27,038 nucleotides of DNA, from the IMG/VR virus record IMGVR_UViG_3300037557_000671, positions 1 to 27,038 of that record. One strand, given 5' to 3'. The translations under genes were made by a program, and so were the position numbers. The stretch's first letter is position 1. The number at the start of each line of letters is the position of its first letter. The notes under the pieces are model-generated. The model was not told the origin of the DNA. It did no database searches and saw only the letters and a program-made list of their open reading frames with translations. Positions 1 to 6,140 of this stretch are shown here, in pieces. The DNA is from a virus.

Positions 1-2
1 AG

Positions 3-98
3 TTGATTGAAAAAAATCAATTAAAGAAAATTTGGTACAAAGGGGAAAAAGATTTTGGCAATTATAAACGTTTTATGGTAATCGGACAATGGCAGTAA
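3..98 (+). CDS. C-terminal end of an unidentified upstream protein (partial)
   Basis: A reading frame is open from the left edge and ends at a TAA at 96-98. The last 31 residues are basic and aromatic, ending KRFMVIGQWQ. The stop overlaps the start of the next gene (ATG at 89) by 10 bases, the close coupling common in phage operons. Too little is present to name a family, and it could still be a chance open frame in an AT-rich edge. Confidence 0.45.
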   Translation: MIEKNQLKKIWYKGEKDFGNYKRFMVIGQWQ

Positions 99-730
99 AA
101 TATGCTGTTGCATGCATATGTGTTGGTGACAAATATAATATAAAAGATATACAAAGTTTAGAAAACATGGTATTTAAAAATACTTCTTATAATATAAATT
201 TTCGTGTATTTGATGAACCGGTTCTTCCTAAATGGTGGACTAAGGTTTTATATCATTCTCCAATAATAGAACAGTTTACAGAAGAAGTTGTTTTAGCCTT
301 TGATTTAGATGTTGTAATAAAAGGTAATATAGATAGTTTATTTGATTGGGTAGAAAAACAAAATTATTTATGTGCTCCGTGGGCTCGCTGGAGGGAACAT
401 ATGGACGACTTTGAAGATCAAAGAAATAGAAATATACTATGTACTCCGTATAATTCTTCAATATTAGGATGGAAACCAAATACATGTTTAAAAATTTGGG
501 AGGAATTTGAATTTGAAGATATTGAAAAATATGATGGATTTGATACCTATCTTTGGATGAAAAAATTAGACCCTATTCGAATACCAGATAGTTTTTATTA
601 TTCAGCACATTTTTCTAATTACGAAGAATTAGATTATCCCATAGTTCTTTTTAACAAGGGCCAGTCAACCGGAATATCTGAAAAAAAGGATATTTCTATG
701 AGAGTTCCGTGGGTTAATAAATACAGATGA
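89..730 (+). CDS. Small GT-A-type glycosyltransferase-like protein
   Basis: This 213-residue protein looks like a compact nucleotide-sugar glycosyltransferase. Residues 5-14 form a hydrophobic beta strand followed by VGDKYN. A DLD motif sits at residues 72-74 within AFDLDVVIKGNIDSLF, which matches the DxD metal/nucleotide-sugar site of GT-A enzymes; the NIDSLFDW segment after it is typical of the GT-8-like group. W and aromatic residues around 95-100 and 155-160 fit an acceptor pocket. In T4-like phages such enzymes glycosylate DNA bases, virion proteins or host surface sugars, and the sequence does not say which. The stop codon is at 728-730 and the tmRNA acceptor piece begins almost immediately after it, so this gene and ssrA may be co-transcribed. 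Enzyme class is fairly sure, substrate unknown. Confidence 0.65.
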   Translation: MAVKYAVACICVGDKYNIKDIQSLENMVFKNTSYNINFRVFDEPVLPKWWTKVLYHSPIIEQFTEEVVLAFDLDVVIKGNIDSLFDWVEKQNYLCAPWARWREHMDDFEDQRNRNILCTPYNSSILGWKPNTCLKIWEEFEFEDIEKYDGFDTYLWMKKLDPIRIPDSFYYSAHFSNYEELDYPIVLFNKGQSTGISEKKDISMRVPWVNKYR

Positions 731-790
731 TACTGTTGACATATCTAGATAACAGTCAAGACATCGGTGCGATTCCGATCAGCTCCACCA
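731..790 (+). ncRNA. ssrA: tmRNA acceptor piece
   Basis: This piece carries the charged end of the two-piece tmRNA. The T-stem ATCGG (763-767) pairs with CCGAT (775-779) around a 7-base loop TGCGATT (768-774), which has G in place of the usual second T of a T-loop. The acceptor strand is 780-786, then ACCA ending at 790, so CCA is genomically encoded. A perfect ACTGTT/AACAGT inverted repeat (732-737 with 751-756) could form an alternative hairpin that competes with the P2 helix before processing. The 5' boundary is inferred from the end of the preceding gene. Confidence 0.88.
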
Positions 791-799
791 AGGGAAGTT

Positions 800-892
800 A
801 TGGAAAAATCAATTATGTGGATTGCAATAACTATAATTCTTACTCTGGTAATAACATACGGCGTTTTATATATTGGTTATGACTTTCGTTGA
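800..892 (+). CDS. 30-residue single-span membrane peptide inside the tmRNA intervening segment
   Basis: An ATG at 800 opens a 30-codon frame ending at TGA 890-892. It is preceded by AAGGGA (790-795), a Shine-Dalgarno-like sequence 4 bases upstream. The peptide begins MEKSIMWIAITIILTLV, so a charged N-terminus leads into a hydrophobic stretch at about residues 5-26, and it ends YDFR: one predicted transmembrane helix. The frame and its ribosome site fill the whole intervening segment between the CCA end (790) and the GGGGCTG start (894). No family is recognised. Small phage membrane peptides act as holins, antiholins or host-protein inhibitors, but nothing here chooses among them. Chance is possible for so short a frame, though the fit to the segment argues against it. 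Confidence 0.55.
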   Translation: MEKSIMWIAITIILTLVITYGVLYIGYDFR

Positions 893-893
893 T

Positions 894-1080
894 GGGGCTG
901 AAATAGATTTCGATTGATTGTGAGGTAAGATAAAGAGGTATCCGGTAGAGGCACCACCGTAACGGTCCATCAAACTAATCGCAAACAATAACGATTATAC
1001 TGCATACTCTTACGCACTCGCTGCGTAGACTATAGCCGAGTTGTGGCCGTCACTTGGGAACAGAAGCACGGTCAGCTACA
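894..1080 (+). ncRNA. ssrA: tmRNA coding piece
   Basis: It begins GGGGCTG and continues into a D-arm-like AGATTTCGAT, the equivalent of the conserved GGATTCGAC of bacterial tmRNA. The region 933-975 is where pseudoknot 1 is expected; ACCG-TAA-CGGT (956-966) can form a short hairpin there. The tag frame is at 981-1028. After the tag, TGGCCGT (1044-1050) pairs with ACGGTCA (1068-1074), flanked by TAGC (1033-1036) with GCTA (1075-1078), giving a closing stem-loop that probably marks the 3' end of the piece. There is no U-run after it, so the end is more likely made by nucleases than by termination. Confidence 0.88.
981..1028 (+). other. ssrA: tmRNA proteolysis-tag reading frame
   Basis: Starting at the resume codon GCA (981-983), preceded by CTAATC (compare ATAGTC in E. 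coli), the frame reads ANNNDYTAYSYALAA and stops at TAG (1026-1028). The YALAA end is identical to that of the E. coli tag ANDENYALAA, which directs tagged proteins to ClpXP and related proteases. At 15 encoded residues it is longer than the E. coli tag. Confidence 0.93.
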
Positions 1081-1099
1081 CAATTTGAAAAGGAAATAA

Positions 1100-1612
1100 A
1101 TGGCTGAATATATTAACAAAGAACCCTGTGAATTTATTTACAACATAACCGCTGTAGAAAGAGTTGTTGATGGAGATACTATTGATGCGGTTTTTGATTT
1201 GGGCTTTGATGTACGAATATGTAATAGAATTCGTTTACTAGGAATCGACACTCCTGAATCACGAACAAAAGATTTAGAAGAAAAGTTTTATGGAAAACTC
1301 TCATCGGCCGCACTCAAGTCGTGGGTACATTGGGCAGTCATGTCAGACAGAGATGATATCGAAATCCAATGTCGATGTCCAGAATCAGATAGTAGAGGAA
1401 AGTTCGGTAGAGTACTAGGTGAACTTTGGATTAACTGCACAGAAGATGGACATGAGTTTGGCGGATGGACAAATATAAACAAATGGATGTGTGAAAGTGG
1501 TTACTCAGTTGGATACTTTGGTGGAAGTAAAGAAGAGATTGAAGCAGAACATATGAAAAATAGAACACTCCTCGAAGAACGAGACGGAGTTAAGTATATA
1601 GAACATAGCTGA
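1100..1612 (+). CDS. Staphylococcal-nuclease-like (SNase) endonuclease
   Basis: This 170-residue protein has the SNase core: VDGDT at residues 23-27 (D26 equivalent to nuclease D21), RLLGIDTPE at 45-53 (R45, D50 and E53 aligning with R35, D40 and E43), and KFGRVLGELW at 101-110 (R104 aligning with R87). All catalytic residues are therefore present and a Ca2+-dependent nuclease is expected. The start ATG has AAGGA 6 bases upstream. It follows the tmRNA gene by about 20 bases and may share its transcript. No signal peptide is seen, so it would act in the cytoplasm, perhaps in host DNA breakdown or repair; phage roles for this family are not well established. Confidence 0.8.
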   Translation: MAEYINKEPCEFIYNITAVERVVDGDTIDAVFDLGFDVRICNRIRLLGIDTPESRTKDLEEKFYGKLSSAALKSWVHWAVMSDRDDIEIQCRCPESDSRGKFGRVLGELWINCTEDGHEFGGWTNINKWMCESGYSVGYFGGSKEEIEAEHMKNRTLLEERDGVKYIEHS

Positions 1613-1617
1613 TATCA

Positions 1618-2472
1618 ATGAGCACTAGAATAATAAAAAAAACATTTGTTGAAGTTTCTAACGATTTTCGGGGGTATTCTGAAACATATATGATTCTTCA
1701 ATATGAAAGCCCTCCCATCATATTATCTGGTCCAATGTTTAAAAGAGTTTTTCAACTCACAGAAAAAGAAGCCCTCCATTCAATTAGCTTACCGCATTTA
1801 AAAAATAAATTTCCCAAAATCGTGGGAAGAGCAAAACATATTTCTACTTTTACACAAATGCAATCGCATGCTACTATTTGGAAAAGTGGAATCGGAGATG
1901 ATCGTTCTGGCGGAATGGTTCTCCATGTTAAAGGAAATGTAACAGGACAGTTTAACCAAGATCTTTATACTGAAATGTTAAAAGGAGGTAGAAGAGTTAT
2001 AATGTTAAATGATGATACAATTGATGATCAGGAATTTGAAGATGAATTAAAAAAATTACAAAGTGATTTAAGAGAATTAGTTCACACAATATTCATTAAA
2101 GATCTCAAAATAATACCTGAAAAAACGTATGGTTCGTCCGATGATGATTATCCAAGTGAGTTTAAACAAGAATTAGATGGCCGGCAAAAAAATACCCTCA
2201 TTAAAAAATATATGCAGGGAATGGAAAAATTAATAGCTAGTAAAAAATATAAAGAAGAAGTATCAGATATGATGTTTGATATGATTGCTATTGGTGATTA
2301 TGAATATAATGAAGTTATTATGGAAAAAGTTAAATTATTAGCAATCTATGTTGTAGATCGAAACATAGACCATAAAGAAATTGGGAATCTAAAAAAACAA
2401 TTCAAAGTCCCCGTTTATCCCAATACCTCTCGCTCACAAATCGAAAAAGTCCTACAATCAATAAATTCATAA
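1618..2472 (+). CDS. Conserved-looking hypothetical protein, 284 residues
   Basis: No family is recognised. The protein is soluble and rich in lysine and glutamate. The N-terminal half (1-125) has a mix of strands with the segment SPPIILSGPMFKRVF, and residues 135-155 (DDQEFEDELKKLQSDLREL) look helical, possibly coiled coil. The C-terminal 100 residues look helical and end in PNTSRSQIEKVLQSINS. It starts 6 bases after the nuclease stop, without a strong ribosome site (ATCA before ATG), so translation is probably coupled to the gene before it. It ends just ahead of the sigma70-type promoter at 2479, so it closes the upstream transcription unit. Confidence 0.6.
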   Translation: MSTRIIKKTFVEVSNDFRGYSETYMILQYESPPIILSGPMFKRVFQLTEKEALHSISLPHLKNKFPKIVGRAKHISTFTQMQSHATIWKSGIGDDRSGGMVLHVKGNVTGQFNQDLYTEMLKGGRRVIMLNDDTIDDQEFEDELKKLQSDLRELVHTIFIKDLKIIPEKTYGSSDDDYPSEFKQELDGRQKNTLIKKYMQGMEKLIASKKYKEEVSDMMFDMIAIGDYEYNEVIMEKVKLLAIYVVDRNIDHKEIGNLKKQFKVPVYPNTSRSQIEKVLQSINS

Positions 2473-2478
2473 AATACC

Positions 2479-2507
2479 TTGACATCTCGTTGAATTTATT
2501 ATATAAT
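2479..2507 (+). promoter_or_regulatory. Consensus sigma70-type promoter for the folE-queC cluster
   Basis: TTGACA (2479-2484) and TATAAT (2502-2507) are both perfect consensus hexamers separated by exactly 17 bases. Transcription would start near 2514, leaving a short A-rich leader with AGGAG (2530-2534) before the folE ATG at 2538. A match this exact suggests recognition by unmodified host RNA polymerase, hence early or strong expression. Confidence 0.85.
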
Positions 2508-2537
2508 AATACTTTAAATAAAAATAAATAGGAGAAT

Positions 2538-3221
2538 ATGGAAGAACAGCGAAAATGTGATCCAGCGTTGGGTCATTTAATAAATGAACATTTGATAAGT
2601 CTTGGTTTAGAAACCCCCATGACTCAAGTTCGAGAAAAATTTGATGAAGAAAAAGCTATTGAAATTGTCAAAAATAATATGACAAGCATCATGGAGGCGC
2701 TGGGGTTAGATCTCAAAGATGATTCATTGCAAGACACTCCCAAAAGAGTGGCACACATGTTTGTGAATGAAATTTTTTGGGGACTTGATTATAATAGATT
2801 TCCAAAATGTACAAAAATAGAAAATAAGATGAACTATAAAGGTTCATTTGTATTAGAAAGAAATATTAATGTTCAATCATATTGCGAACATCACTTTATT
2901 GTTATTGATGGTGTTGCTAGTGTTGCTTATCTTCCAGGAGAGTTCGTTCTAGGGTTATCCAAATTAAATCGTATTGTTCAATTCTTTTCTAAGCGCCCTC
3001 AAGTTCAAGAAAGATTAACCGAACAAATTAGAGCAGCAATTGCATTTGTTGCTGGAACAGAAGATGTTGCAGTTCAAATTGATGGAGCACACTTTTGTGT
3101 TAAATCACGAGGTATTCAAGATCTTAGATCCACAACCGCCACAGCAGCATTGTCAGGAGTTTTTGAAAGTGGTACCCAACGTCAAGAATTCTTAGCAGGA
3201 TGCCGATCCTTAATGGCCTAA
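2538..3221 (+). CDS. folE: GTP cyclohydrolase I
   Basis: This enzyme converts GTP to 7,8-dihydroneopterin triphosphate, the first step of both folate and 7-deazaguanine (preQ0) synthesis. Residues 116-119 are CEHH and residues 185-187 are HFC, giving the zinc ligands C116, H119 and C187 that correspond to C110, H113 and C181 of E. coli FolE. GLSKLNRIVQFFSKRPQVQERLTEQI (positions 139-164) is nearly identical to the family signature, and the C-terminal region (CVKSRGIQD onward) matches the substrate-binding part. The length of 227 is close to that of E. coli FolE. It is the first gene after a consensus promoter, with AGGAG upstream. Its position ahead of a TGT-like gene and queC indicates that it feeds DNA-base modification, not folate synthesis. 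Confidence 0.95.
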   Translation: MEEQRKCDPALGHLINEHLISLGLETPMTQVREKFDEEKAIEIVKNNMTSIMEALGLDLKDDSLQDTPKRVAHMFVNEIFWGLDYNRFPKCTKIENKMNYKGSFVLERNINVQSYCEHHFIVIDGVASVAYLPGEFVLGLSKLNRIVQFFSKRPQVQERLTEQIRAAIAFVAGTEDVAVQIDGAHFCVKSRGIQDLRSTTATAALSGVFESGTQRQEFLAGCRSLMA

Positions 3222-3222
3222 T

Positions 3223-4098
3223 ATGACATATATTTCACATGAGATTCCCAGATGTTTAATAGATGAACATCAAGATTTTATTAGCGATTATCAATTTGTA
3301 TTACTTCATAAAATTTTAGAAGATAAAGATTATGCAGAGCTGGTTTGTGCATTTGCAGGTTGTGGAGAATTTACTTATCTTGATAATAGTTGTTTTGAAT
3401 TAGGAGAATCATTAGATAATGAAATTCTTTATGAATGGTTCACAAGGTTAGAACCAAACTATGTTGTCTTACCAGATGTTCTTGGAGATAAAAAAAGAAC
3501 ATTGGAAAGGTCTCTTGAATTTATTAATGATTATCCCGATACTATCATTCATGGCATGCCCGTTATTCAAGGTTCTACACCAGATGAAATGATTGAATGT
3601 TATAATGAATTTCTGAAGTTTGAATTTCCTATAATTGGTATTCCATTTGTATATTCTTGGATCGATAAGGACCCAACTCTTCAAGCAAATGGAAGAATTA
3701 AATTACTTGAAAAAATGGATAAGGAATGTATTAATAAAAATTTAAAACATCATTTATTGGGAACCTGGCAAGCAAGAGAGTTTGCGCATTATAGGAATTA
3801 TGACTGGATTCATAGTATAGATACTTCTAATCCGGTGATGTCAGCATTAGATGGTACCCCTTATGCGGGTATTCATGGATTGACACAAAAACCGAAATCA
3901 ACATTTGATTCTGTTTATGATATGAAAGAAGAAGATATTAATTTAGATCTTTTATATTATAATGTTGATACCTTCAAAGAAATTGTTACAGGAATTGGGT
4001 TTAACGCCGAAAGACGTTCTGCTAAATTTCCCGAGAGAAAATATCCAAAGGATTTGGATTATTACAAATATTCTACATATTCAGGCACACATGGCTAA
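3223..4098 (+). CDS. TGT-like (DpdA-family) 7-deazaguanine transglycosylase
   Basis: This 291-residue protein resembles the queuine tRNA-ribosyltransferase fold used by DpdA enzymes, which exchange guanine in DNA for a 7-deazaguanine. Visible elements are YLDNSCFELGES (residues 52-63, D54) in the place of the TGT DSGGFQ motif, VVLPDVLGD (81-89, D85), HGMPVIQG (110-117) and WIHSIDTSNPV (195-205). D200 is the candidate catalytic nucleophile. It lacks the C-terminal CxCxxC zinc site of bacterial tRNA TGTs, as expected for DNA-type enzymes. It starts one base after the folE stop region and overlaps the next gene by 8 bases. Context (folE, queC, amidotransferase) strongly supports the assignment; identification rests on motifs and neighbourhood. 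Confidence 0.72.
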   Translation: MTYISHEIPRCLIDEHQDFISDYQFVLLHKILEDKDYAELVCAFAGCGEFTYLDNSCFELGESLDNEILYEWFTRLEPNYVVLPDVLGDKKRTLERSLEFINDYPDTIIHGMPVIQGSTPDEMIECYNEFLKFEFPIIGIPFVYSWIDKDPTLQANGRIKLLEKMDKECINKNLKHHLLGTWQAREFAHYRNYDWIHSIDTSNPVMSALDGTPYAGIHGLTQKPKSTFDSVYDMKEEDINLDLLYYNVDTFKEIVTGIGFNAERRSAKFPERKYPKDLDYYKYSTYSGTHG

Positions 4099-4321
4099 TA
4101 AAATAAACCCAGAGCATTATCAAAGTGATACTAACTTAGAAGCAATTGATGTTATAGAAGCGTTTGATTTAAATTTTCATCGTGGTAATATTGTTAAGTA
4201 TGTATTACGAGCTGGTAAGAAAACGGAAAAGGGTTATGAAAATAAAGAAAAACAATTAGAAGATTTAAAAAAATCAAAATGGTATCTTGAAAGATTAATC
4301 AAGACTGTTGAAGAAGGTTAA
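4091..4321 (+). CDS. DUF3310 family protein
   Basis: The 76-residue product begins MANKINPEHYQ and carries the DUF3310 pattern: HYQ near the N-terminus, an AIDVIEAFDLNFHRGNIVKY block (residues 18-37), LRAGKK (39-44) and LEDLKKSKWYLERLI (56-70). The family is common in phages and is sometimes annotated as a nucleotide-kinase-like or SaV-like protein without firm biochemistry. An ATG at 4091 was chosen over upstream in-frame starts because those lie deep inside the preceding gene and the family pattern starts here. It overlaps the transglycosylase end by 8 bases and is followed by queC after one base, so it is cotranslated with the modification genes. A role in that pathway is only inference. 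Confidence 0.75.
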   Translation: MANKINPEHYQSDTNLEAIDVIEAFDLNFHRGNIVKYVLRAGKKTEKGYENKEKQLEDLKKSKWYLERLIKTVEEG

Positions 4322-4322
4322 T

Positions 4323-5066
4323 ATGAATTTACGTGAAGCTAGAAATAAACTTCCAAAGATTGAAAATAATGTCGCTGTTATATTATCAGGCGGCATGGAT
4401 AGTTCTATTGTTACAATGATGTTGGCTCGTCATTATGGACCAGAAAAAGTATTTGCTTTAACATTTAATTACGGACAAAAACAAGTAGCTGAATGTGGAA
4501 AAGCAAGAGACTTATGTAAAGAATTAGGTGTGGCACATAAACAATTAGATATTGGTTATTTTGGAGAATTGGTTCAACCTATTAGTGCAAATATATCTGG
4601 TACTGATATTGATATGCCCGACATTAAAGAAGTATTAGGAGATCCTCAACCCGTAACATATGTTCCATTTAGAAATATGATGTTATTGAGTAACGCTTGT
4701 GCTTTTGCAGAAGTGGTAAAGGCGGAATATATTTTTTGTGGTCTTCAAGTTCATGATGAATATGGTTATTGGGATACTAGTCAAGCTTTTGTTGATGCAC
4801 TTAATGGGATCACAGTTTTAAATAGAACATTTAAAACAAAAATTATTGCACCGTTTTCTTTATTGAGCAAAACAGAAGAACTTAAAATTTGTAAAGAATT
4901 GAGAACATACAATTTATTACAACATACTTTAACTTGTTATGATCCGGATGCAGAGGGAAAAAGTTGTGGTACATGTCCATCATGTAGTGAACGTATTAAG
5001 GCATTTATGAATATTGGTGATCCGGATCCAATTCCATATCAAAAAGAGATAGACTGGCATGTGTAG
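4323..5066 (+). CDS. queC: 7-cyano-7-deazaguanine (preQ0) synthase
   Basis: QueC converts 7-carboxy-7-deazaguanine to preQ0 using ATP and ammonia. The PP-loop SGGMDSS is at residues 22-28. The zinc site is C205, C215, C218 and C221 (TCYDP...CGTCPSC). FNYGQKQ (48-54) and VPFRNMM (114-120) are further family blocks, and 247 residues is near the E. coli length. The ATG at 4323 has AAGG 5 bases upstream; an in-frame TTG at 4308 lies inside the preceding gene and is less likely. Its last 8 bases overlap the glutamine amidotransferase gene, suggesting coupled expression of two proteins that are often fused as Gat-QueC. QueD and QueE are not in the window. Confidence 0.94.
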   Translation: MNLREARNKLPKIENNVAVILSGGMDSSIVTMMLARHYGPEKVFALTFNYGQKQVAECGKARDLCKELGVAHKQLDIGYFGELVQPISANISGTDIDMPDIKEVLGDPQPVTYVPFRNMMLLSNACAFAEVVKAEYIFCGLQVHDEYGYWDTSQAFVDALNGITVLNRTFKTKIIAPFSLLSKTEELKICKELRTYNLLQHTLTCYDPDAEGKSCGTCPSCSERIKAFMNIGDPDPIPYQKEIDWHV

Positions 5067-5670
5067 TATTTCAGCAAGTAAAGATAAAAAGCTTTTACTT
5101 AAATTAGTTGACCTAAATAGATACCGCGGGGAAGAATCACATTCTGTTTCTCAGTTTTTGTATACTGATGATGGCCTAGACCTTAAATCTCAAACAAAAT
5201 CTTACGGGCCTTTAGATTTAGATTTATTAGATGGAAATTGGGATTATTGTGTAGTGCATCAACAAGCACCAACATCAAAAGAAGTTAATAATACTGATTT
5301 AGCAACAGGTAGATTTATTCATCCCGCTGAAAAAGACAAATCATATTTGTGGCATAATGGTATTATTAAAGAAGGAAAATTTGAAGGTGATTGGGATACG
5401 GAATGGTTATTTGATCAAGCATTAAATGAAGATCTAAATGAAGTAGATGGAACTTTTGCTTGCATGTTATATCATGAAAATCAAATATATGTTTTTCGTA
5501 ACGAAATCAGTCCTTTGTTTAAAGACAGTGCTTCTTTTTCTTCAACTAAGTTTGAAGGATCAACACCGGCAGTACCAAATATAATGTGGAAGTTAGATTA
5601 TGGAACTGGTGTTTTAGAAGAAAAGTGGAAATTTAAAACTAAAGAAAATCCCTATCATTTTGGAGAATAA
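5059..5670 (+). CDS. Class-II glutamine amidotransferase (free GAT partner of QueC)
   Basis: The protein begins MCSISASKDK, so removal of Met exposes Cys2, the N-terminal nucleophile of class-II (Ntn) glutamine amidotransferases. Further family features are RYRGEESHS (residues 21-29, equivalent to the RGPDS block), LWHNGII (97-103), DTEWL (113-117) and VDGTFACML near 129-137. At 203 residues it is a stand-alone glutaminase domain with no synthetase domain. In phages and archaea a GAT domain fused to QueC is linked to conversion of preQ0 to the G+ (archaeosine) base. Here the two are separate genes overlapping by 8 bases, with queC first, which keeps the GAT Cys at a free N-terminus. It would supply ammonia to the modification step; the exact acceptor is inferred. 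Confidence 0.75.
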   Translation: MCSISASKDKKLLLKLVDLNRYRGEESHSVSQFLYTDDGLDLKSQTKSYGPLDLDLLDGNWDYCVVHQQAPTSKEVNNTDLATGRFIHPAEKDKSYLWHNGIIKEGKFEGDWDTEWLFDQALNEDLNEVDGTFACMLYHENQIYVFRNEISPLFKDSASFSSTKFEGSTPAVPNIMWKLDYGTGVLEEKWKFKTKENPYHFGE

Positions 5671-6140
5671 TGTTTGTACATCCTGTGAATGCCTCTACTG
5701 AGGTAACGAATATAGATGAAACAATGATACAACCTAATACTATTGATTTACGAATCGATAAGGTTTATCGAGTTGGCGCTGGTCCAATGCACATGGATGA
5801 AGACAAAAAAGAACATAGAAAATTAATAGAACAAAAGGTTGATGGAAATGGCAATTTTACTTTAGACCATGGCGCCACTTATCAAATTCAATCTAAACAA
5901 CATGTTGATATAGCAGAAGGAGAAATTGCAATTCTTCTTGGCAGAAGTTCTTTTAATAGAAACGGTGTTTTAATTATAAGTTCAATATATGATTCAGGAT
6001 TTAAAGATTACGCCGGCGCTACTTTGTATAATCCTACTGGCGAAACTACAGTAAAACCAAATACACGGTTTGCACATTTAATTATAGCTAAGGCTGAAAC
6101 ACTACACAAATATGATGGGGACTATGGCGAAAAAGGTTGA
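5670..6140 (+). CDS. dUTPase / dCTP-deaminase superfamily protein
   Basis: The 156-residue protein has the shared trimeric fold signatures: IQPNTIDLRI (residues 20-29), GRSSFNRNGVL (91-101) and IYDSGFKDYAGATLYN (106-121). The GRSS block is common to both enzymes. The glutamate that deaminates dCTP (E138 in E. coli Dcd, within LEFYN) appears as threonine in ATLYN, while D108 sits where dUTPases carry the catalytic aspartate. A dUTPase is therefore more likely than a deaminase. Either would lower dUTP and feed dTTP synthesis. Start and stop overlap the previous gene by one base (TAATG), so translation is coupled to the modification cluster. Confidence 0.75.
   Translation: MFVHPVNASTEVTNIDETMIQPNTIDLRIDKVYRVGAGPMHMDEDKKEHRKLIEQKVDGNGNFTLDHGATYQIQSKQHVDIAEGEIAILLGRSSFNRNGVLIISSIYDSGFKDYAGATLYNPTGETTVKPNTRFAHLIIAKAETLHKYDGDYGEKG

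Follow-up and report, generated by a model that had tools for sequence, protein, structure and literature searches.

An uncultured marine virus of bacteria (IMG/VR record IMGVR_UViG_3300037557_000671) carries, close to the start of the 27,038 nucleotides analysed here (the whole stretch, hereafter the window), a locus that a preliminary description interpreted as a circularly permuted, two-piece tmRNA gene of a T4-like phage. This raises the question of whether such a gene is indeed present and, if so, what is encoded by the segment that separates its two pieces. Two-piece forms are given as 53 of 133 unique phage tmRNA structures in the accessible text of Buchholz et al. (2022, PMC9004378), and for a tmRNA database, a paper of 2025 gives 79 sequences of bacteriophage origin and 11,946 of permuted form (PMC11915505). 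The remark that a permuted tmRNA is not well described in a T4-like phage does not hold, as the two-piece tmRNA of the cultured T4-like marine myophage Melnitz was published in 2022 (PMC9004378). Here, we confirm that the tmRNA gene of the window is real and of a known kind. Its spacer contains an ORF, absent from the preliminary description, which is a more unusual feature than the tmRNA itself. In a literature search that included the accessible text of PMC9004378, PMC11915505, PMC10504331 and PMC3978253, we came across no earlier account of a permuted tmRNA whose spacer encodes a protein, which does not prove its absence from print; as far as this search shows, a protein-coding tmRNA spacer is an undescribed variant, for which conservation across several unrelated families of proteins speaks. 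The accessible text of PMC9004378 does not mention a spacer ORF and lacks the words 'intervening', 'spacer' and 'microprotein'.

Results

The Rfam covariance model of permuted tmRNA (RF04321, tmRNA_permuted) matches positions 729-1028 over 213 of its 213 model positions with 114 bits (cut-off 47, E = 7.4e-22), with the acceptor part encoded upstream of the coding part, and the alpha_tmRNA model (RF01849) scores 61.7 bits against 673-1074 (cut-off 50). The pairings proposed earlier are recovered: the acceptor stem joins CAGCUCC (780-786) to GGGGCUG (894-900) in 7 of 7 pairs, G896 and U784 form the alanine-identity wobble at the G3-U70 position, and P2 is found within the Rfam alignment (757-759 with 914-916 and 753-755 with 918-920), which provides two further helices across the pieces (938-942 with 729-733 and 929-932 with 742-745). 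Piece order, cross-piece helices and G3-U70 are as in the alphaproteobacterial two-piece tmRNA (RF01849) and RF04321. On the plus strand, the Rfam alignment defines an acceptor piece (729-790), which comprises strands of the long-range helices and P2, the T arm (763-779), the 3' acceptor strand, A787 and an encoded CCA (788-790), and a coding piece (894-1080, 3' end approximate), which comprises the 5' acceptor strand, the 5' part of P2 (914-920), the partner strands of the long-range helices, the tag and a 3' element. Positions 790 and 894 are predicted ends of the pieces. Of the previously suggested span of 731-1080, the end at about 1080 was retained, while the start is better placed at 729. 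Located by the Rfam alignment and the tag pattern, the tag reading frame (981-1028, plus strand) is intact and reads ANNNDYTAYSYALAA, which terminates in a degradation signal, with UAG at 1026-1028 as its stop. In the 3' element, 1045-1050 is complementary to 1068-1073 in the manner of a pseudoknot, judged from base complementarity only, and the folding z of -0.06 indicates no excess stability.

Against the gene stands the result of ARAGORN, which, run in linear mode, made no call in the window. Among related loci, it called a permuted tmRNA in 28 of 50 and missed 22, so that two-piece phage tmRNAs may be more numerous than the published ARAGORN-derived numbers suggest. Most likely, the gene would give rise to a working two-piece tmRNA with the help of host SmpB, RNase P and tRNA-end-processing enzymes. 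A search for SmpB in 16 viral records, of which 15 had yielded a permuted tmRNA and one measures 177 kb, gave no match; this is not proof of absence because viral records may be fragments.

The assignment to a T4-like phage is corroborated by T4-type core genes, namely gp32 (PF08804 / phrog_224) and baseplate gp6, which place the window with the T4-like marine phages (Kyanoviridae). The top-ranked isolates for gp6 are Melnitz (38% identity), HTVC008M (37%) and Mosig (36%); gp32 shows 52-54% identity to cyanophage proteins among the 30 matches listed, and 8 further records were counted at 60-80% identity. On the basis of these proteins, we take the window phage to be an uncultured deep relative of marine T4-like phages. 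Downstream of the tmRNA gene lies an SNase-like nuclease gene (PF00565; 1100-1612, plus strand), and of 72 related loci, 48 have an SNase or gp32 relative downstream of the tmRNA; among the 45 whose downstream sequence extends to 2 kb or more, 39 do. Further downstream, GTP cyclohydrolase I (FolE-like), QueC-like and dCTP deaminase-like proteins are clustered at 2538-6140, perhaps as a 7-deazaguanine or nucleotide-modification cassette.

The two pieces of the tmRNA gene are separated by a 103-nt spacer (791-893, plus strand), which is bounded by the encoded CCA and GGGG and predicted to be absent from the mature tmRNA. Immediately 3' of CCA, a Shine-Dalgarno-like AGGGAAG (791-797, plus strand) is found, followed by an ORF (800-892, plus strand) for a 30-aa single-transmembrane microprotein, MEKSIMWIAITIILTLVITYGVLYIGYDFR. 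This ORF starts with ATG at 800, extends over 30 codons to a UGA (890-892) and ends one base before the coding piece.

Relatives of the locus were gathered by DNA patterns and protein queries, so that all counts are lower bounds and biased by the patterns. At least 125 distinct permuted-tmRNA-like genes were obtained, 121 of them with all seven acceptor pairs according to our script; the four with 6 of 7 pairs are probably false and were left out of the tree, the full-length-ORF test and the promoter-box count described below. By their spacers, the genes fall into several groups. Family A comprises at least 47 distinct viral tmRNA genes, that of the window included, with a 30-aa ORF in a spacer of 103-104 nt and AAGGAAG, AGGAATG or similar at the Shine-Dalgarno-like position. 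At least 13 genes form family B, with a basic ORF of 50-59 aa in a spacer of 178-366 nt, and at least 8 genes carry other hydrophobic ORFs (22-30 aa), in all of which a 19-residue window exceeds 2.2 on the Kyte-Doolittle scale (other-TM group; two members, L138 and L170, resemble family A). The remaining spacers measure 3 to 140 nt, and one distant permuted tmRNA (L073, about 402-576) has a 50-aa basic ORF in a 175-nt spacer, a possible further spacer gene family. A loose pattern recovers a tag frame in all 64 ORF-bearing genes (families A, B and other-TM) whose coding piece measures at least 170 nt, the other 4 of 68 being cut by contig ends. Acceptor-stem variants in relatives (GGGGGCG, GGGGGTG, GGGGATG) are likewise paired, whereby the scan itself required 6 of 7 pairs.

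A search with the family A peptide alignment found 67 viral loci, in 64 of which the ORF lies between CCACCA and GGGG; two loci (L269, L277) are cut by contig ends, and a third, found by its protein (L227), has GGGACGG facing CCGUUCC, which form seven pairs when counted by hand and retain U70. Within the extent of the contigs, family A was found only in tmRNA spacers. In family B, 9 of 21 loci lack a tmRNA piece from 160 bases upstream to 330 bases downstream of the ORF (L194-L197, L199, L200, L204 and L208 by inspection, L198 by the same match values). On the contig of L157, a family B ORF and a coding piece (L191, about 2649-2835) are preceded by sequence without an acceptor piece; this is a broken or split tmRNA which has kept its spacer gene. 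Another locus (L110, about 3312-3677) has a 366-nt spacer in which about 195 further bases follow a family-B-like ORF. In the family A gene nearest to the window's tmRNA (L107/L165), the ORF is mostly deleted and the spacer is 61 nt shorter, with both stem arms kept. Since the coding piece of L107 is 98% identical to that of the window, the family A ORF is dispensable.

Database searches gave little indication of function. Pfam (8 spacer peptides) and PHROGs (10) provided no convincing match, the best E value being 0.019 to a family of unknown function. Among 50,697 records of isolated phages, the family A peptide had no match at E values up to 10 and the family B peptide a single partial match (E = 7). 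Searched by blastn against phages, the tmRNA regions of the window, L149 and L065 had no match, and for L044, hits to six records covered 7-14% of the query and included one annotated tmRNA. The most economical guess is that the family A microprotein is a short membrane modulator.

To evaluate the coding potential of the spacers, a full-length ORF was defined as one with an ATG within the first 25 bases that covers at least 75% of the spacer, with dinucleotide shuffles serving as null. Such an ORF is present in 47 of 47 family A genes (expected 2.1), 12 of 13 family B genes (0.15) and 8 of 8 other-TM genes (0.28); as these groups were chosen for having an ORF, the test only shows that ORF length and position are not due to chance. 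In the rest group (spacers of at least 75 nt), the number is 1 of 15 (L073; expected 0.35). Short ORFs in L089, L090 and L067 are not full-length by this rule and were not counted, and L002 and L034, whose ORFs run into the coding piece, fall outside the rest group, which began at 75 nt. Substitutions provide independent information. Changes in family A were counted over codons 5-26, outside the spacer stem described below, on a tree comprising 43 distinct ORFs. There are 79 synonymous and 79 non-synonymous changes, plus one via a stop codon, compared to 41.7 ± 5.3 synonymous, 110.2 non-synonymous and 7.1 stop changes under random placement, where 79 synonymous changes were reached in 0 of 2000 draws. 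This corresponds to a dN/dS-like ratio of 0.38, and 66 of the 79 non-synonymous changes remain within the set AVILMFWCGT. The pairwise pN/pS over the same codons (0.50, with column shuffles as low in 3 of 200) is a weaker coding signal. For family B, pN/pS is 0.54 (11 distinct ORFs) or 0.38 (four of the MSFREIW subtype), both from small and saturated samples. We read the tree-based counts as purifying selection on the family A ORF. A chance ORF was rejected on account of the shuffle counts and the synonymous excess. The predicted transcript would have a non-coding role and also contains an ORF conserved as protein.

A T4 late-promoter-like box, AATAAATA (716-723, plus strand), ends six positions before 729 and has one mismatch to TATAAATA, which we take to be the 8-base T4 late-promoter consensus. 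In family A, 12 of 47 genes are preceded by an exact box (expected 0.4), in family B 11 of 13 (expected 0.1); with at most one mismatch, the numbers are 27 of 47 (expected 7.2) and 12 of 13 (expected 1.9). According to the preliminary description, the tmRNA may rescue stalled ribosomes late in infection. The position of the box in the window suggests that late transcription may start at the acceptor piece. TATAAAT is quoted in the accessible text of PMC9004378, where the Melnitz tmRNA is placed behind an early promoter and an early action is postulated; by analogy, this would speak against late expression of the window's tmRNA.

Melnitz (MZ577097, gene 86) provides a cultured counterpart, being, like the window phage, a T4-like marine phage with a permuted alpha-type tmRNA. 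Its 142-nt spacer has, as that of the window, paired ends, a Shine-Dalgarno-type site (GGAG) and an ORF starting with ATG, whereas the encoded protein is different and gp6 is, as given above, a distant match. The Melnitz ORF (family C) has 41 codons open at GGGG and a stop 42 bases into the coding piece. Family C comprises 18 viral loci, three more matching the coding piece only, and its pN/pS is 0.27 (first 35 codons, 11 loci). The ORFs of Melnitz and L429-L441 reach GGGG without encountering a stop, and for Melnitz the predicted cut coincides with a codon boundary; L439-L441 carry an 8-codon insertion that keeps the frame. In L442-L446, a stop lies 7 to 54 bases before GGGG. Among isolates, family C was found in four Melnitz records only, in which SsrA is the sole annotated feature under the match. 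The spacers of Mosig (about 44 nt) and Bajun (118 nt) contain no ORF listed by our script, and in HTVC008M a match was found whose spacer the spacer-locating script did not resolve. Just downstream of the Melnitz tmRNA match (L428, 1099-1147), a glutamine riboswitch, a motif described in the ssrA 3' domain, gives a score; unlike in Melnitz, none was found in the window at 1-3000 with E values up to 1.

Bacterial genes served as control. A pattern scan returned 117 loci (almost all alphaproteobacteria among the 80 titles listed), of which 114 are permuted genes with perfect acceptor pairs. Many alphaproteobacterial spacers have, as the phage genes, paired ends and UGAU before GGGG. The bacterial spacers measure 3-116 nt (median 35, one above 72 nt), and a full-length ORF is present in 1 of 114 (L287, 68-nt spacer), where the ATG lies one base after CCA and thus leaves no room for a Shine-Dalgarno site. 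In the 116-nt spacer of L328, open frames begin with GTG or run into the coding piece. In the SAR11 order, the RNA was found in 176 of 197 genomes; its span is 181-189 bases among the matches listed, too short to accommodate such an ORF when compared to the 300 bases of the window, and the spacers of five genomes read directly measure 7-12 nt.

The ends of the spacer pair with each other in ORF-bearing and ORF-less genes alike. In the window, the 5' arm (787-802, plus strand) contains the Shine-Dalgarno-like site and the AUG, and the 3' arm (878-893, plus strand) contains the end of the ORF and the UUCGUUGAU leader before GGGG; 793-802 pairs with 878-887, CAA (789-791) with UUG (889-891) and A787 with U893. 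Most of the Shine-Dalgarno-like site and the AUG thus lie inside the stem. The fold of 780-900 has a predicted energy of -36.5 kcal/mol (z = -5.13). In an arm-swap comparison, native arms pair better than swapped ones in 8 of 8 other-TM genes (-14.1 versus -7.3 kcal/mol), 8 of 9 family B genes (-14.0 versus -9.8 kcal/mol) and 33 of 35 ORF-less spacers of at least 26 nt (-14.8 versus -6.6 kcal/mol). In family A, native arms are better in 26 of 27 genes, with a tiny gain (-11.7 versus -11.4 kcal/mol) because the arms barely vary. The openness of the start codon, expressed as mean unpaired probability, was compared between the full precursor and an RNA without the last 20 spacer bases, representing the nascent state. 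It is 0.08 versus 0.37 in family A (lower in the full precursor in 42 of 47 genes), 0.20 versus 0.56 in family B (12 of 13) and 0.19 versus 0.38 in the other-TM group (only 4 of 8). For the window, it is 0.14 in the complete RNA and varies from 0.00 to 0.59 while the RNA grows, being open at some lengths, so that the window by itself supports a gate weakly.

Spacer genes are exchanged between closely related tmRNA genes. On a quick tree of 115 of the 125 tmRNAs, computed without the spacer (besides the four probably false rows, L069 and L073 with spacers above 120 nt and 4 short rows were dropped), the spacer label changes at least 19 times, with 8 changes for family A and 5 for family B forced by well supported branches. 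In the clearest case (L150 and L068), the acceptor pieces are identical (62/62) and the coding pieces 98% identical, with different spacer proteins. A family B and a family A gene share 98% of the acceptor and 94% of the coding piece (L129 and L136), and a second such pair 94% and 98% (L163 and L023); three looser pairs with differing spacer genes have 92-98% and 72-87% identity. Over all six pairs, the acceptor piece is thus 92-100% identical over 62 nt. L138 contains, no more than about 330 bases before its position 1435 and 5' of the intact tmRNA, a stretch that resembles a further acceptor piece of the window type, and so does L161; this looks like a replacement of the acceptor piece through recombination.

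Discussion

The explanation we favor, with a probability of roughly 80%, is that the locus is a functional alpha-type phage tmRNA gene whose precursor doubles as an mRNA for exchangeable microproteins. A single primary transcript would carry a ribosome-binding site right after CCA followed by a short ORF, so that the spacer would act as a coding slot. Ribosomes would probably load during transcription, as long as the 3' arm of the stem is still missing. Pairing of the two spacer ends beneath the acceptor stem would then make the ribosome-binding site and the start codon inaccessible. The folded RNA would then be the substrate for processing, with RNase P cutting before 894 and trimming proceeding to CCA; both steps would end translation of the ORF and yield the tmRNA. 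The RNase P cut would leave the stop codon of the microprotein one base from the RNA end and, in Melnitz, no stop at all. With such ends, the microprotein may be tagged by its own tmRNA.

This last consideration leads to a reading in which the locus is a self-targeting loop: the RNase P cut removes the stop or leaves it at the RNA end, and the stalled peptide is tagged by the same tmRNA. The missing stop before GGGG in Melnitz and L429-L441, the Melnitz cut on a codon boundary after 41 codons and the family A stop that ends one base before the cut are in line with such a loop. However, family B stops lie at least 9 bases and those of L442-L446 7 to 54 bases before the cut, and chance alone would give the Melnitz frame in 1 of 3 cases, so that we regard such a loop as unlikely. 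Chance could also have placed two RNA pieces around a small protein gene of the same operon, with no functional link to the tmRNA. Such an arrangement would account for the 9 of 21 family B loci without a nearby tmRNA piece, for L157/L191, where ORF and coding piece are kept without the acceptor piece, and for the exchange of spacer genes. It is a realistic possibility that we nevertheless doubt, since the leader-trailer stem joining both ends, start codon included, is kept in ORF-bearing genes and family A is confined to tmRNA spacers, as far as contigs reach.

Even less is to be said for an ordinary permuted tmRNA in which RNA conservation and an AU-rich sequence give rise to the spacer ORF as a side effect, which we consider quite unlikely. 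The spacer ends (stem and UGAU) are conserved as RNA also in ORF-less phage and many bacterial genes, U-rich spacers readily read as hydrophobic peptides, and the ORF is mostly deleted in L107/L165. On the other hand, the synonymous excess resides in loop codons outside the stem, full-length ORFs greatly exceed the shuffle expectation in three groups (selected by the presence of an ORF), and the slot also holds unrelated, non-hydrophobic ORFs with pN/pS values of 0.27 (family C) and 0.54 (family B). It is extremely improbable that the gene is a decayed, functionless fragment of a host tmRNA: while ssrA fragments are known from prophages (PMC9004378) and L157 exemplifies decay within the group, tag and acceptor stem are intact, alternative acceptor stems are still paired, and synteny is accompanied by many divergent intact relatives.

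Several known systems are comparable. In the T4 late genes e and soc, ribosome-binding sites are hidden by hairpins; translation is gated there by RNA structure, as it would be in the window, but no tmRNA is involved. A protein gene inside a tmRNA gene, as here, is also known where a group I intron interrupts the tmRNA gene and encodes a homing endonuclease; there, the self-splicing intron lies in the T loop, in contrast to the permuted spacer with ORFs of 22-62 codons described here (PMC11915505). The accessible text of the same paper also reports a permuted tmRNA with a tRNA-Ala gene in its spacer, likewise a second gene in this position, which is however an RNA gene and a single, nominally archaeal case (PMC11915505).

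Conclusions

Beyond the window, we tentatively suggest that in T4-like marine phages the tmRNA spacer is a modular coding slot gated by its stem and that, in the Melnitz lineage, processing turns the transcript into a non-stop mRNA; this wider proposal is possible rather than probable. If true, each transcript would give either a microprotein or a ribosome-rescue RNA, with the stem both aiding processing and gating translation, and the non-stop microprotein mRNA of the Melnitz lineage would be the very substrate of tmRNA. Since Melnitz and its host are cultured, the idea is directly testable. Small proteins can remain hidden by annotation, as illustrated by the Melnitz tmRNA feature, which has no annotated protein gene even though the ORF is conserved. 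Protein-coding spacers are added to the biology of tmRNA genes, the cargo in the spacer may be a reason for phages to keep permuted tmRNA genes, and the locus would make it possible to test how stable-RNA processing and translation are connected in infected cells.
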